Assembly (NCBI RefSeq): GCF_027924145.1
Contig: NZ_BRVP01000010.1
Coordinates: 62,001 to 126,000, forward strand
Direction of reading: 5' to 3'
DNA: 64,000 bases
Origin: Neptunitalea chrysea
GTDB taxonomy: Bacteria > Bacteroidota > Bacteroidia > Flavobacteriales > Flavobacteriaceae
This document shows positions 1 to 62,378 of the stretch, piece after piece; within the stretch, counting starts at the first letter, position 1; every line of letters begins with the position of its first letter. Made by a program: the position numbers and the translations under genes. The notes under the pieces are model-generated. The model made no database searches. It saw only the letters and a list, made by a program, of their open reading frames with translations, and was not told where the DNA came from.

Positions 1-2413
1 AGAAATCTAACTGACGTTGGAAAGAAACCTCAGCACCGTATACAACAGCATTATCTCCGTTTAATGGTTGGTAAACTTCATAACCTTCGTCATTCTCTGT
101 TACAAATGTATATGTAAAGTCACTGATGTTTTTAAAGAATACACCTCCCGATATAACCCCTACTGATTTGTAATAGTGTTCTGCCATAAAATCAAAGTTC
201 ATTGATCTAGCCGGATCTAAATCAGGGTTTCCTAAGATCAATTCTTCGTCTTCTCTATTCTCCTCAAGGAAAGGTACTAAATCTACATAGTTAGGTCTTG
301 CTAACGTATTAGTCCATGCAAAACGTAAAACAGTATTCTCAGAAGCATTTAATTTAAAATGTAATCCTGGCAAGATATTAGTATAACTGCTACTTCCTTT
401 TAACACCTCAGTACCAGCATAATCACCATCCTCATCAAAAATTATAGAATTTCCTGTACTCTCAATGTGTGTACTCTCCACACGAACACCAAACAATACA
501 TTTAATTTGCTCGATAATTTTTGATCTGCCATTACATAACCTGCATATACATTCTCTGTTACATCAAAGTTTGCTGTAAGGTATTCATCTGGTAAATCTT
601 CTCCTTCAAATAAATCGGTATCGTTTAAGTTTAACCCTCCTAAATATTCTGCTGTTGCAAAATACCCAGCTTGGTATTGGCTACCTGCTAAGAAATTAGG
701 ATCAGAATAATCTTTAGTAGTAACATCTGCCATTGTTTCCATTCCTGAAAGTGGCGAGTACTCAATAAAACCATTATTTCTATTCTTATTTTTAAATCTA
801 CCTCTTGTACCAAATTTAAATGTACCCTCTCCTTGACCAAATAAGTTAGCTGGTAATTCAAAGTTTGCAAACACATTCAAATCATCCTCTTCTGTATATT
901 GATTTTCTTCTGTAAGCTCACCAAATTCAAAGTTACCTAAAGCCAAATCGTCATCATAAACTGCTTTATATCTTGGGAATTCAGAATCAATAGTTCTAGC
1001 CACTAAAAATTCAGATTCAAACTCTATATAACGCTCATTCAAACGCTCTTCAGAAGCTTTCGCGTACGATGCCATCCAATCGAATTTCACACTACCAAAA
1101 AGGTGATTACCACCTAAAGTGTAGTTTTGCATACGCTGATCTTCTAAACGTCTGTTCTTGTTTCTATTGTTATTAATCCCTCCTTTTGTTTGACGCTTAG
1201 ACTCTGCTAAAAAGCTAGTTAAATTTCCATTTTCAACAGTAAAGTCATTTGGTCCAATATCTTCACCATCTAAAATTTCATACTCTACTCTATATCTATT
1301 TTCTCTATCATCTCTCCAATTATACATAGACTTGAAGAAAATAGTATTGTTATCATTAAACTTATAGTCAAAGTTTGCCGAAAAACTTCTTCTTACACGT
1401 TCAACTAAATACGTTCTTAATTCAAAAGTACTGTTATAAGGATTAACATCTACAGACTCTAAATTATCTTCGTCTCCGTTATTATATTCAAACTCATCAG
1501 ACCATTCTGCTTCAATGTTATCAGAACCAAAATCATTATCATTATAAGAAGCAGCAACCATCCATCCAAACTTACCGTTTTTAGTTCTGTCTCCTACTAA
1601 GAAAGACCCATTAACAATTGGCTTGTCTGTAATAAAGTTCATACCAGAACCCACAGTTGCAGCTAAACGAAACTTCTGAGGAGCCGAACGTGTAATTAAA
1701 TTTACAGAACCTCCTAATGCGTCACCATCCATATCTGGAGTAACCGCTTTATTAACTTCAATTGTCTGAATCATATCAGATGGGATAAGGTCCATCTGTA
1801 CATTTCTATTATCTCCTTCAGCAGAAGGAATACGGCTACCATTTAAGGTTACAGAGTTTAACTGAGGCGCTAAACCACGAATAATAATATTTCTTGCCTC
1901 CCCTTGGTCAACCTGCATTGTAATACCAGGAATACGCTTTACTGCATCTCCTATGTTAGAGTCAGGAAACTTACCAATTTGTTCTGTAGATACAACATTC
2001 GTAATGTTTGTATTGTTTTTCTGTGTATTTAAAGCTCTTGCTTGTCCGGCCAAACCAAACCCAATCACTTCCACTTCCTCAAGTTCTACATCCTGAGAAT
2101 TTAAAACCACCTCTACCGAAGTTGTTTGTCCGGCAGTTACTGTTGCAGAAACTTTTGTATCTGCAAAACCTAAATACTTTACTAAGATAGTATACGATCC
2201 TTCAGGCACATTTACTAAGGTAAACTTACCATCTTGGTTGGTAATAGCCCCTTTACTTAAAGAGGTAATAGATACCGATGCACCTGGTACATAAATACCA
2301 TAATCATCAGTAATAGTTCCTTGAATTGTTCCCTCTCCACTTTGTGCAAAACCGCAGAATAAGGCAACAAACCATGTTACAATAGCTAATTTTAAGCCGT
2401 TTGATTGTTTCAT
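1..2413 (-). CDS. TonB-dependent receptor, C-terminus missing at the window edge
   Basis: Outer-membrane active transporter; the substrate cannot be told. Translating leftward from an ATG at 2413 gives about 804 codons with no stop before base 1, so only the N-terminal part is present. The order is a signal peptide (ending near GFAQ), a carboxypeptidase-regulatory-like beta domain (about residues 28-110, GTIQGTITDDYG...), a plug domain (about 125-230, with IRGLAPQLNSVTLNG), then a beta-barrel. The barrel stretch AWTNTLARPNYVDLVP is typical of the large Xanthomonas/Caulobacter-type TonB receptor family. No SusD-like gene is adjacent on the visible side. A TPR/LuxR-type regulator lies upstream on the same strand, which suggests but does not prove regulation by it. 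Confidence 0.9.
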   Translation of the reverse strand, partial: MKQSNGLKLAIVTWFVALFCGFAQSGEGTIQGTITDDYGIYVPGASVSITSLSKGAITNQDGKFTLVNVPEGSYTILVKYLGFADTKVSATVTAGQTTSVEVVLNSQDVELEEVEVIGFGLAGQARALNTQKNNTNITNVVSTEQIGKFPDSNIGDAVKRIPGITMQVDQGEARNIIIRGLAPQLNSVTLNGSRIPSAEGDNRNVQMDLIPSDMIQTIEVNKAVTPDMDGDALGGSVNLITRSAPQKFRLAATVGSGMNFITDKPIVNGSFLVGDRTKNGKFGWMVAASYNDNDFGSDNIEAEWSDEFEYNNGDEDNLESVDVNPYNSTFELRTYLVERVRRSFSANFDYKFNDNNTIFFKSMYNWRDDRENRYRVEYEILDGEDIGPNDFTVENGNLTSFLAESKRQTKGGINNNRNKNRRLEDQRMQNYTLGGNHLFGSVKFDWMASYAKASEERLNERYIEFESEFLVARTIDSEFPRYKAVYDDDLALGNFEFGELTEENQYTEEDDLNVFANFELPANLFGQGEGTFKFGTRGRFKNKNRNNGFIEYSPLSGMETMADVTTKDYSDPNFLAGSQYQAGYFATAEYLGGLNLNDTDLFEGEDLPDEYLTANFDVTENVYAGYVMADQKLSSKLNVLFGVRVESTHIESTGNSIIFDEDGDYAGTEVLKGSSSYTNILPGLHFKLNASENTVLRFAWTNTLARPNYVDLVPFLEENREDEELILGNPDLDPARSMNFDFMAEHYYKSVGVISGGVFFKNISDFTYTFVTENDEGYEVYQPLNGDNAVVYGAEVSFQRQLDF

Positions 2414-15699: not shown

Positions 15700-16653
15700 T
15701 TAAGTGTCAAGCTTTTTGAATTTGCTTGCATCAAACTTTTCATTATTTCTTTTAATTCTCAATTTCCCTCTAGACTCTTCCAATCCCTTGCCATTTTTAT
15801 TTTCTTTTAAGTATTGGATATAGCCTCTACCTCTAAACCTATATATTGTTCCAGAATACGGATGATACAACTCTATGGTTTCGTCATTTATAACGGACAA
15901 CTCAAAGTATTCATTGCCTAAATAATCATAATCTAATGTTAAAGCTTTATACTGGTAACTTCCAGACATATCTAACACTTCATAAATACCTTCATAATCC
16001 CAATACAACTGATTAATACTTGTACCTGGAGCATCTACAGAAGACAAGAAAGTATCTCCATTACCATCTGGCAAAAATGCTAAATAGTTCTCTTGGTCAA
16101 AATCATTCACAGCACCAGCCTGACTCGTATATATTTTTTCCCAAGCCTCATACTCTTGTAAAAAGTAATGAATGTTATCATAAAATAACATATCGTAATC
16201 AAAAGTAGCACGCTGATATCCATATAGTATAAAAGATGTATTTGTAGCATAATTATACAAACGTAACTTATTAGCAGCAAGTTGCTCTACAGTAAAGTTC
16301 CATACACCATCTATATCATGATCTAATTGTAAAGTGGTACCATATGCGTCATAATACCCAACATCAATACCATAACCGTTCCCATTCCCATTTGCACCAA
16401 TCCCCGATAAATTGTTGTTTGCATATAACACTCCGTTTCTAAATGAAATGGTAAAGGCTATTTGCATAAACGGAATCTCTCCATTAGCATCAGACTGATT
16501 AACATCTATATACCATAATTCGTACGAACGTGTTAACTCATCTAATGTAATGGTATCATCATAAAAATCATCTTCTATATAAGTCGTATTGGTACATGAA
16601 GAAAAAGTAAAAAGCATTACAGCTATTACCGATAGTAGTTTTATTGTTTTCAT
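15700..16653 (-). CDS. Hypothetical lipoprotein
   Basis: I do not recognise a function. The ATG at 16653 gives a 317-residue product with a lipoprotein signal peptide ending at FTFSSC; the longer frame starting upstream would bury this signal. The mature region begins with acidic residues. It continues as a Tyr/Asp-rich, strand-forming sequence (WYIDVNQ, GVWNFTVEQLAANKL), consistent with a lipocalin-like or beta-sandwich lipoprotein. The C-terminus is lysine/arginine-rich (GKLRIKRNNEKFDASKFKKL). Single-gene unit, convergent with the barrel-protein gene. Confidence 0.7.
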   Translation of the reverse strand: MKTIKLLSVIAVMLFTFSSCTNTTYIEDDFYDDTITLDELTRSYELWYIDVNQSDANGEIPFMQIAFTISFRNGVLYANNNLSGIGANGNGNGYGIDVGYYDAYGTTLQLDHDIDGVWNFTVEQLAANKLRLYNYATNTSFILYGYQRATFDYDMLFYDNIHYFLQEYEAWEKIYTSQAGAVNDFDQENYLAFLPDGNGDTFLSSVDAPGTSINQLYWDYEGIYEVLDMSGSYQYKALTLDYDYLGNEYFELSVINDETIELYHPYSGTIYRFRGRGYIQYLKENKNGKGLEESRGKLRIKRNNEKFDASKFKKLDT

Positions 16654-16770
16654 AAGCAGTTCAATTTCCGTGTTAATATACCAACCATAACTCAACTACT
16701 GTGCCATTTTTTTTCATAATTAGCTAACTAACTCATAAACAACACTTCATGTAATCCTATTTTTTTTAAG

Positions 16771-36835: not shown

Positions 36836-37267
36836 TTATCTGTTCATGTGCTTAATTTCTTCCTTAAAGGTATCCAAATCAACCCCCAAGTTTAATAGGT
36901 ACATTGCTTTTTTAACAATAAACTCCACATTACCCGGAGTAAACCCTAAGCCAATAGCCAAACGAATCATAATTTTCATTTCTTCTTCATCTGCTATATG
37001 ATCTACATATACCATTCTGGCTATGTCATATAAACGCTCTAACCTTGTCTCGTATAATACAGGTGGGTTAATATCATACAGCGCAGGGTTTTCTATAATT
37101 TCTTCTTTTTTTTCATCAGAAATTTCTAAGCGATGTGCAAGCCTATCAATAAAAGAGCGCTCTTCATCATTTATGAATCCATCTGATAAAGCTACTCGAA
37201 CAATCGCTGCAAAATGTGCTCGGTTTCGATCCCTGAAACCGGGTGAGTATAAGTCTGAAAATGCCAT
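36836..37267 (-). CDS. TerB-like (tellurite-resistance-fold) protein
   Basis: A 143-residue all-helical soluble protein matching the TerB fold: FAAIVRVALSDGFINDEERSFIDRLA and ARMVYVDHIADEEEMKIMIRLA, each with the acidic D-G-x-I-x-x-E-E-type loop thought to bind metal. No other ter genes are nearby, so tellurite resistance should not be inferred. Single gene. Confidence 0.85.
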   Translation of the reverse strand: MAFSDLYSPGFRDRNRAHFAAIVRVALSDGFINDEERSFIDRLAHRLEISDEKKEEIIENPALYDINPPVLYETRLERLYDIARMVYVDHIADEEEMKIMIRLAIGLGFTPGNVEFIVKKAMYLLNLGVDLDTFKEEIKHMNR

Positions 37268-37287: not shown

Positions 37288-37295
37288 CAAAGATA
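37288..37295 (-). promoter_or_regulatory. Candidate -7 element of the TerB-like gene
   Basis: TATCTTTG on the minus strand, 20 bases before the ATG at 37267. Confidence 0.5.
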
Positions 37296-37376: not shown

Positions 37377-37398
37377 TATCTAAATTCTTATTTAGATA
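37377..37398. repeat. Inverted repeat in the TerB / lipoprotein spacer
   Basis: TATCTAAAT tctt ATTTAGATA, perfect 9-base arms, about 180 bases upstream of the sigma-54-like promoter. Possible activator site or RNA hairpin. Confidence 0.45.
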
Positions 37399-37579
37399 TA
37401 CCGTTGTTTCTTTAATTTATACAGGTGTTACCACCGTTCCTTTATATAGTATATAGGATATTAACGCTCATATTCCCGTACCCTAGAACCACCTCAAAAA
37501 TCATATGTTAAAATACTCATGAATATCTTAACATACCGCTTAATTTTTTAAAAAAACTTTAATAGTGACACCCTTTGGT

Positions 37580-37595
37580 TTGGCATTTATATTGC
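37580..37595 (+). promoter_or_regulatory. Sigma-54-like -24/-12 promoter
   Basis: TTGGCATTTATATTGC has GG-N10-GC with the TTGGCA and TTGC boxes of RpoN promoters. It lies about 100 bases upstream of the lipoprotein ATG at 37697. No TAnnTTTG element is seen for that gene. Bacteroidota commonly carry rpoN, but no rpoN gene is in the window. Confidence 0.45.
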
Positions 37596-37612
37596 GCAAC
37601 TTTATATAACGC

Positions 37613-37658
37613 AACTACTATTAGTAAAGCCTTCTAGTAGTTAGTCTCGATAATCGAG
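37613..37658. repeat. Two adjacent inverted repeats in the predicted leader
   Basis: AACTACTA (37613-37620) pairs with TAGTAGTT (37635-37642). Two bases further on, TCTCGATAATCGAGA (37645-37659) is a 15-base palindrome around a central A. Both would lie in the 5' leader if transcription starts near 37607. There is no T run. Confidence 0.55.
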
Positions 37659-37696
37659 AAATTTTAACTGAATTGTGAACTCTAAAATGGAAAAAA

Positions 37697-38212
37697 ATGA
37701 ATCGTAAAACCTTCATTTTAGCAGCTTTACTAACCGGTTTAGTAAGCTGTAATGCGCAACAAAAAAACGAAAGTACAACCAACCCTACCACTGCTGAAAA
37801 CACTACAAAGCAGGAAACACCAAAAGGTAACTGGACTGTAAACAAAGAGTTTGATGAAAATGGGAACTTAACTAGTTATGACTCTATCTACACTTACGGA
37901 TACAGTTCTGATGGTAACGACACGCTGCCGTTTAACAACAAAGAAGAAGTTATGAAACACTTTCAGCAGTATTTTGGTAACACCCAAATGCCTTCGCAAT
38001 TTATGAATCAGTTTTTTAGTGACTCGCTGGGAGTAAACGAAAATTTCTTTGACAAGAACTTCTTTAGCAATCGAATGTTTTCGGATGATTTTCAAAAACA
38101 AATTCAACAAATGGACTCGTTACGAAACTCATATCTCCAACAATATCAATCACAAATATGGGATAATAAAAAGCAAAATTCTAAGACTACAAATAAAAAG
38201 AATAAAGCCTAA
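37697..38212 (+). CDS. Hypothetical lipoprotein, Gln/Asn-rich
   Basis: Function not recognised. The 171-residue product has a lipoprotein signal peptide (FILAALLTGLVSC). A Thr/Asn/Glu linker leads to a conserved-looking middle (KGNWTVNKEFDENGNLTSYDSIYTYGYSS), then a Gln/Phe/Asn-rich helical tail ending in lysines. It is expected on the periplasmic face of a membrane. The upstream region is unusual (sigma-54-like promoter and stacked inverted repeats). A two-helix membrane protein gene follows about 100 bases downstream. Confidence 0.7.
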   Translation: MNRKTFILAALLTGLVSCNAQQKNESTTNPTTAENTTKQETPKGNWTVNKEFDENGNLTSYDSIYTYGYSSDGNDTLPFNNKEEVMKHFQQYFGNTQMPSQFMNQFFSDSLGVNENFFDKNFFSNRMFSDDFQKQIQQMDSLRNSYLQQYQSQIWDNKKQNSKTTNKKNKA

Positions 38213-50318: not shown

Positions 50319-50353
50319 AAAAAGTGATGTGTTTAAACACATCACTTTTTTTT
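50319..50353. terminator. Terminator shared by ankyrin gene and rsmI
   Basis: AAAAAGTGATGTG and CACATCACTTTTT form a perfect palindrome around TTTAAA. The rsmI stop codon lies inside the stem. Confidence 0.9.
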
Positions 50354-62030: not shown

Positions 62031-62378
62031 ATAATTTTTTTGTGTACACCTCCTTATACACAAACAATCTGTCTAAAATAGATTAATTTATAGCTGCTCC
62101 TAACTTGGATAGCTCGGTTTAAGTCAATCCCCATTCTACTATAATATAAAGGCTTAAAAAAGAGCTCTTACAGTGAAGTCAAAAAAAGAATTTATAAGAA
62201 TTGTGTTTTTAAACTTGGTTCATCCAATCTCAATTATCGAGTAAAGTCTTACTCATTAAAATATATATTTTCAAAGACAACTATATTAAATACCAATCTT
62301 ATTAAAATCCTAAAGAAATAAACACATCCTAATTAAAAATAAATTTTACAATAAGCTACATAACCACTTATAGTAATA
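62031..62378. other. Spacer between pheS and the SGNH-like gene
   Basis: About 350 AT-rich bases. A 23-codon minus-strand frame (MGIDLNRAIQVRSS...) was seen but has no supporting feature. No hairpin with a T run was found for the SGNH-like gene to its right. Confidence 0.4.

Follow-up and report, generated by a model that had tools for sequence, protein, structure and literature searches.

The classical examples of sigma-54 promoters that have an activator site upstream are those of genes controlled by NtrC or PspF, and in E. coli the heat-shock and envelope-stress responses are run by other factors. The closest described system to the locus analyzed here is that of Flavobacterium psychrophilum, in which transcription starts were mapped and a -24/-12 motif was designated SM4; the sigma-54 targets given in that report include GroESL, Lon, DnaK, GrpE-DnaJ, HtpG, ClpB, Skp, the gliding operon, and several lipoproteins, and one promoter, that of the gliding operon, was studied by reporter mutagenesis (PMC9723704). 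Sigma-54 control was also predicted to be enriched over heat-shock genes in Flavobacteriia, with COG0071 (the small heat-shock protein), GroES/GroEL, GrpE, DnaK, and the protease group COG0466 among those placed under sigma-54 (PMC12316311). In Bacteroidota, some of the response to heat shock and envelope stress appears to be run by sigma-54.

Here, we analyze a lipoprotein gene contained in a 64,000-nt stretch of Neptunitalea chrysea DNA (the window); its gene content and a related locus in Winogradskyella agree with a place in the Flavobacteriaceae. The locus resembles the SM4 system in its -24/-12 promoter, and the SM4 targets include genes for protein quality control and for envelope stress as well as several lipoproteins or exported proteins. 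In F. psychrophilum, lon is a sigma-54 target (PMC9723704), and a site of this type also lies upstream of lon in the genome of the window. It differs in that the printed selection of SM4 targets, to which the comparison was confined, names no hsp20 and no operator (PMC9723704). The other study, which is a prediction by orthologous groups, names in the portion considered no such lipoprotein, no hsp20–lipoprotein pair, and no activator site (PMC12316311). A search of open-licence papers gave no account of TGTCA-N3-TGACA as an operator, of this family of lipoproteins, or of a pairing between it and hsp20. In common with the classical NtrC and PspF promoters, the locus has a -24/-12 element and an upstream palindrome, here at about -87, and the genome encodes AAA+ activators.

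Mapping in F. psychrophilum placed protein-quality genes under sigma-54 (PMC9723704). Control of this kind is thus already known, and the lipoprotein family and the operator appear to be new members of it. The same 5'-end RNA-seq mapping in a flavobacterium makes outdated a remark in the initial annotation of this DNA, that RpoN promoters have hardly been mapped in the class (PMC9723704). What the present data would add is an uncharacterized lipoprotein family that joins the sigma-54 stress set and is linked to Hsp20 in many genera, together with an operator whose helical phasing allows the missing activator and its signal to be sought directly.

The lipoprotein and its family

The lipobox LVSC of the predicted protein was read from the sequence at residues 15–18 (Table 1). 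A search with this single protein matched 9 of 60 genomes, and a search with an alignment matched 107 of 397 genomes of the same family, with the genome of the window included in both counts. Among 69 aligned members, which are the window protein and 68 of 88 usable references (alignment A3), C18 is conserved in at least 90% and Q21 is invariant. Profile searches gave zero matches over the cut-off in Pfam (ten members scanned) and in NCBIfam (three members scanned), and nothing usable for the lipoprotein in PHROGs; the best hit of a PDB profile search (E 0.031) covered N-terminal positions 1–48 only. The structure model was of low confidence (mean pLDDT 66.7, pTM 0.32). It contains strands at residues 44–52 and 58–67 and a long C-terminal helix, and the conserved residues at about 42–67 are predicted to form a beta hairpin.

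Table 1. Positions of the features of the lipoprotein locus (window coordinates) and of one related locus
Feature	Position	Strand	Description and basis
Divergent TerB-domain gene	36836..37267	-	PF05099, E 2e-07
Upstream inverted repeat, AT-rich	37377..37398	.	9-nt arms 37377-37385/37390-37398
32-bp palindrome TATGTTAAAATACTCATGAATATCTTAACATA	37504..37535	.	Candidate activator (enhancer) site; 1 of 2000 dinucleotide-shuffled spacers reached the same quality
Sigma-54 -24/-12 element TGGCATTTATATTGC	37581..37595	+	Pattern match, conserved ahead of the operon, rpoN in genome
Imperfect 15-bp tandem duplication	37586..37615	+	Overlaps the -12 element
Transcription start (predicted)	37607	+	Placed 12 nt beyond the GC doublet, as is usual for sigma-54
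First stacked inverted repeat	37613..37642	.	8-nt arms 37613-37620/37635-37642, 14-nt loop
Second stacked inverted repeat TCTCGATAATCGAGA	37645..37659	.	Core CTCGATNATCGAG is a dispersed genomic palindrome
Lipoprotein gene	37697..38212	+	171 aa, signal peptide, lipobox LVSC (Cys18); ORF translation
hsp20-like gene of G187 (L189)			Operator 1501-1514, sigma-54 site 1588; lipoprotein locus is L081

Evidence for a sigma-54 promoter upstream of the lipoprotein gene

The initial annotation had pointed out an RpoN-type GG-N10-GC signature in the spacer ahead of the gene, and the sequence TTGGCATTTATATTGC, at positions 37580–37595, indeed has this exact spacing. In sigma-54-dependent promoters, transcription usually starts about 12 nt after the GC. 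The pattern TTGGYAYN5TTGC occurs once in the 64-kb window, compared with a mean of 0.14 in shuffled sequences, 13 of 100 of which contained at least one match. The genome search that had been suggested recovered rpoN as well as other GG-N10-GC sites, but the strict pattern was matched 14 times genome-wide versus 9 times by the reversed pattern, and because of this ratio the match on its own proves little. The genome-wide search was too noisy to serve as proof, and it was dropped for this purpose.

The near-equality of these counts, as well as the placing by a script of 10 of the 14 genomic sites within open reading frames of at least 140 amino acids, would be expected if GG-N10-GC were a chance match and the gene were transcribed by a housekeeping sigma factor. 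This explanation is opposed by the lack of any TAnnTTTG on the plus strand of the spacer, which bears out an earlier statement that the gene does without this element; the one at 37295–37288, on the minus strand, belongs to the divergent TerB-domain gene. It is further opposed by the conservation of the site in relatives. For this comparison, 90 loci encoding the lipoprotein family were assembled from the best 80 further matches (E ≤1.1e-20), nine earlier ones with the window's own among them, and L011, while weaker matches were left out entirely, as were the two pieces in G071 and the short contig of G194; L066, in which the lipoprotein frame is broken by stops, was counted for promoters and kept out of the protein alignment. 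In the 300 nt ahead of the operon head, TGGYAYN5TTG[CAT] was present in 70 of these 90 loci, which share ancestry and do not count as independent events, versus 0 for the reversed pattern and 1 for the opposite strand. In 100 composition shuffles of the 90 loci, matches averaged 0.34 and never exceeded 3, and the background in unrelated loci was 4 matches per 157,014 strand-bases.

The pattern was found in 41 of the 45 loci headed by hsp20 and in 29 of the 45 headed by the lipoprotein gene, so that 16 of the 20 loci lacking the strict site are lipoprotein-headed. Allowing one mismatch recovers a site within 200 nt in ten of these 20, in two of the ten at unusual distances only, and gives 0 for the reversed control. 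The last base of the -12 element among the 70 promoters is T in 31, C in 20, and A in 19. The spacing between TGG and the start codon varies little, at 78–83 nt in 33 of 41 hsp20-headed loci and 41–67 nt in 25 of 29 lipoprotein-headed loci. The congener G001 retains the site as TTTGGCATTTATTTTGAG, with GA replacing GC at -12, despite a different upstream gene, which also speaks against a chance match.

It is this conservation, and not the pattern match alone, by which the promoter was judged to be real. The GG-N10-GC site is very probably the sigma-54 promoter of the lipoprotein gene, and its being a chance match is hardly credible. The earlier proposal of a specially regulated lipoprotein is supported, and the GG/GC boxes, whose lack of conservation in relatives the initial annotation had named among its grounds for refutation, hold up in 70 of the 90 loci.

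Within the stretches examined, hsp20 was found upstream of the lipoprotein gene on the same strand in 45 of the 90 loci, and one of these hsp20-type proteins was confirmed as PF00011. The two genes are presumably co-transcribed. In the genome of the window, the single hsp20 gene has TGGTACAAGATTTGT upstream, with TTGT at -12, which was noticed by eye, and TTGGCATAACTATTGC is located 144 nt upstream of lon (L023: 1501-1516), whose product we take to correspond to COG0466. Sigma-54-type sites are common to the lipoprotein gene, this hsp20, and this lon, where the comparison concerns gene order and promoter type only.

RpoN and candidate activators

The genome encodes one RpoN (PF04552, E 5e-52; TIGR02395, 399.9 bits versus a cut-off of 277.35) and four strong PF00158 sigma-54 activators. 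Six more PF00158 rows were weak (20.9–34 bits, cut-off 20.2); because these scores are near the cut-off and PF00158 matches were found in all 14 control genomes, only the four were counted. One activator consists of Sigma54_activat and a Fis-type HTH and has no receiver domain (L121: 3785-8882, minus strand). It precedes lptE (PF04390) and groES (PF00166) on one and the same strand, and nearby genes, named by eye, resemble miaB, a TPR-like protein gene, secG, and groEL. This protein is a candidate for the activator of the stress regulon. An activator–LptE pair is also listed for F. psychrophilum, under a different promoter type, SM5 (PMC9723704).

Operators in relatives and a putative activator site in the window

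The sequence TGTCA-N3-TGACA was found upstream of 27 of the 70 promoters, compared with a mean of 0.0 in 20 shuffles; 18 of 41 hsp20-headed and 9 of 29 lipoprotein-headed loci have it. The center of this operator is located 39–41 bp (9 loci), 83–84 bp (2 loci), 91–95 bp (4 loci), or 103–105 bp (12 loci) upstream of TGG. The steps between these spacings are close to whole helical turns, and 1.5% of random sets of four spacings were equally phased.

A stricter form of the operator, TGTCAWNWTGACAT, was found at 24 distinct places in 23 of the 27 operator-bearing genomes, versus 11 and 13 matches for the two strands with the reversed control in the same 27 genomes, by our own summing of the counts. 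The total number of TGTCAWNWTGACAT matches is thus at the level of chance, but their position is not, as one place is the lipoprotein/hsp20 promoter in 22 of the 23 genomes; the 27 genomes were picked for having the operator at this promoter, and the informative part is the scarcity elsewhere. Of the two other places, the one in G073 is inside a coding frame with no sigma-54 site, and the one in G187 precedes an hsp20-like gene that stands apart from the lipoprotein gene and has a sigma-54 site itself. These two genes of G187 fall on separate contigs, and each has both the operator and a sigma-54 site. As judged from these genome sequences, where the operator is present it is nearly private to the hsp20/lipoprotein promoter.

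The relatives' operator was not found in the window promoter with a matrix (13.5% of shuffles matched the best score). Exact TGTCAN3TGACA has no place in the genome of the window (control 3 per strand) and one in the congener, by unrelated genes. The hsp20 promoter of the window's genome contains a degenerate match at 93 bp, equaled by 1 of 200 shuffles, and the lon promoter of this genome has no operator match (40.5% of shuffles score equal).

The window promoter is instead preceded by a 32-bp palindrome, overlooked by the initial annotation, in which 14 of 16 arm positions are complementary. To our knowledge, it matches no known operator. Its arm motif, TGTTAAN16TTAACA, occurs at 2 places in the genome, versus 3 per strand for the reversed control, and the second place does not have a palindromic interior; the motif has no occurrence in the congener (reversed control 1 per strand), from which the palindrome is also absent in the alignment. 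In the whole window there are six even palindromes of such quality, the one at 37504–37535 included. A perfect 32-bp palindrome, AAAAAGTGATGTGTTTAAACACATCACTTTTT, was observed at 50319–50350, and it is perhaps a two-way terminator.

Long symmetric operators are a typical feature of dimeric repressors as well. The palindrome could be the operator of a repressor or of some other regulator not connected with sigma-54, perhaps one for the TerB gene, or it could be fortuitous; its sequence is unlike the operator of the relatives, and the five other palindromes in the window are as good. Its location, however, favors the lipoprotein promoter: the sigma-54 site is 45 bp away, and the TerB gene and the TAnnTTTG of that gene are both at a distance of over 200 bp. 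The center of the palindrome is 61.5 bp upstream of TGG, at about -87, which is in phase with the operators of the relatives; 2.6% of random positions were equal in this test, which was post hoc and used spacing classes chosen by us. Moreover, the layout TGTTA-N18-TAACA resembles TGTCA-N18-TGACA of L037, L039, L060, and L061, although other gaps are commoner in the family (N3 in 27 loci, N26 in 9, N46 in 7, and N38 in 5). The shared helical phase is suggestive only, given that the sequence differs. We regard the repressor operator or fortuitous palindrome as rather unlikely, and the palindrome as a likely activator site.

A model of activation

The explanation that we consider probable is that the lipoprotein gene is a sigma-54-dependent stress gene with an activator acting at the palindrome, and that the lipoprotein is made together with protein-quality genes. 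RNA polymerase containing RpoN would bind TGGCAT-N5-TTGC (37581–37595) and wait as a closed complex, until an AAA+ activator on the palindrome at 37504–37535 (about -87) contacts the polymerase, hydrolyses ATP, and opens the promoter. The transcript would begin near 37607 and encode the lipoprotein, whose production would go along with that of the protein-quality genes hsp20 and lon. The inducing signal may be protein misfolding or envelope stress, and the lipoprotein may have a supporting role on the envelope side. The parts of this mechanism to which the sequence comparisons lend support are the promoter, by its conservation and its sharing with hsp20, the protein factors, by the presence of RpoN and activators, and the upstream site, by the phasing of the operator; the occupancy of the palindrome by the activator, the identity of this activator, and the start site are what we infer.

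More tentatively, the circuit might be a small dedicated stress circuit of the Flavobacteriaceae, a reading that we consider less likely than not. One activator would then control essentially one output, a cytoplasmic small heat-shock protein with a lipoprotein, through the nearly private operator TGTCA-N3-TGACA, which both members of a split pair can keep; in the lineage of the window, the operator would have been replaced by a longer palindrome in the same phase, and Hsp20 would have the lipoprotein as its partner at the envelope.

Inverted repeats in and near the predicted leader

The two adjacent inverted repeats and the upstream repeat with 9-base arms, which the initial annotation had described, are all present (Table 1), and the first stacked repeat falls in the predicted 5' UTR. 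Two adjacent hairpins within a predicted leader of 90 nt could be thought to form a regulatory RNA, such as an attenuator, a thermosensor, or a riboswitch-like element, that controls the lipoprotein. When the region 37607–37697 was folded, as had been proposed, it was mildly more stable than shuffled sequences, but the effect was small (z = -1.92), and 7 of 200 shuffles folded equally well. Zero Rfam families were detected in the window. Repeats of such sizes are also common in shuffled sequences, as 1000 mononucleotide shuffles of the spacer with the same arm and loop limits contained repeats with arms of 7, 8, and 9 in 166, 250, and 30 cases, respectively.

In the genus-level comparison, which consists of two genomes, that of the window and that of the congener G001, the repeats were not conserved. 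The alignment has a 49-column gap opposite the first repeat and the beginning of the second; what is left of the second repeat aligns with unlike sequence that does not contain the palindrome. The core of this smaller repeat, CTCGATNATCGAG, is present at 14 places in the genome of the window, this one included, and at 6 in G001, 4 in G007, and 53 in G022; it is absent in 11 of 20 genomes searched, and the reversed control gave 0 in all 20. Forty copies were inspected (L145-L184), namely every one in the genomes of the window, G001, and G007 and 16 of the 53 in G022, and 36 of the 40 are outside frames of at least 70 amino acids. In most inspected copies the core is preceded by TTA and followed by AT, and the longer form ATTTAAATGCTCC occurs mainly in G022. 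The window copy keeps the core and has diverged flanks; it likely belongs to this dispersed set of palindromes. A copy of CTCGATNATCGAG with one mismatch was also noticed in the window at 62229–62241.

With no counterpart of the repeats in the single congener used for comparison, and with the core recurring at 14 genomic places, the structured leader that had been proposed is left unsupported. A structured regulatory leader was rejected on the grounds of this non-conservation, the fold z-score, the Rfam result, and the frequency in shuffles, and we consider it very unlikely that the hairpins control the lipoprotein; conspicuous as they are, their being a new RNA switch is now unlikely. The simplest reading of the alignment is that the leader segment is an insertion or expansion which spared the promoter and the ribosome-binding region. 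The distance from TGG to ATG is 116 nt in the window versus 67 nt in G001, and the usual promoter-to-start distance suggests, on the basis of this one congener, a gain in the lineage of the window rather than a loss in the congener.

Other sites

Two further sites were noticed. The sequence TTGGTATATATTTTGC (L032: 1516-1501, minus strand) is located about 110 nt upstream of a tmRNA gene (1005–1405, minus strand, ARAGORN), and it may be due to chance. In the window, TGGCACAGTAGTTGA was found at 16706–16692 on the minus strand, 53 nt upstream of a likely ATG (16653), a spacing within the range of the family studied here. The gene behind it is lipoprotein-like (15700–16695, minus strand), and it is a possible second sigma-54 target.
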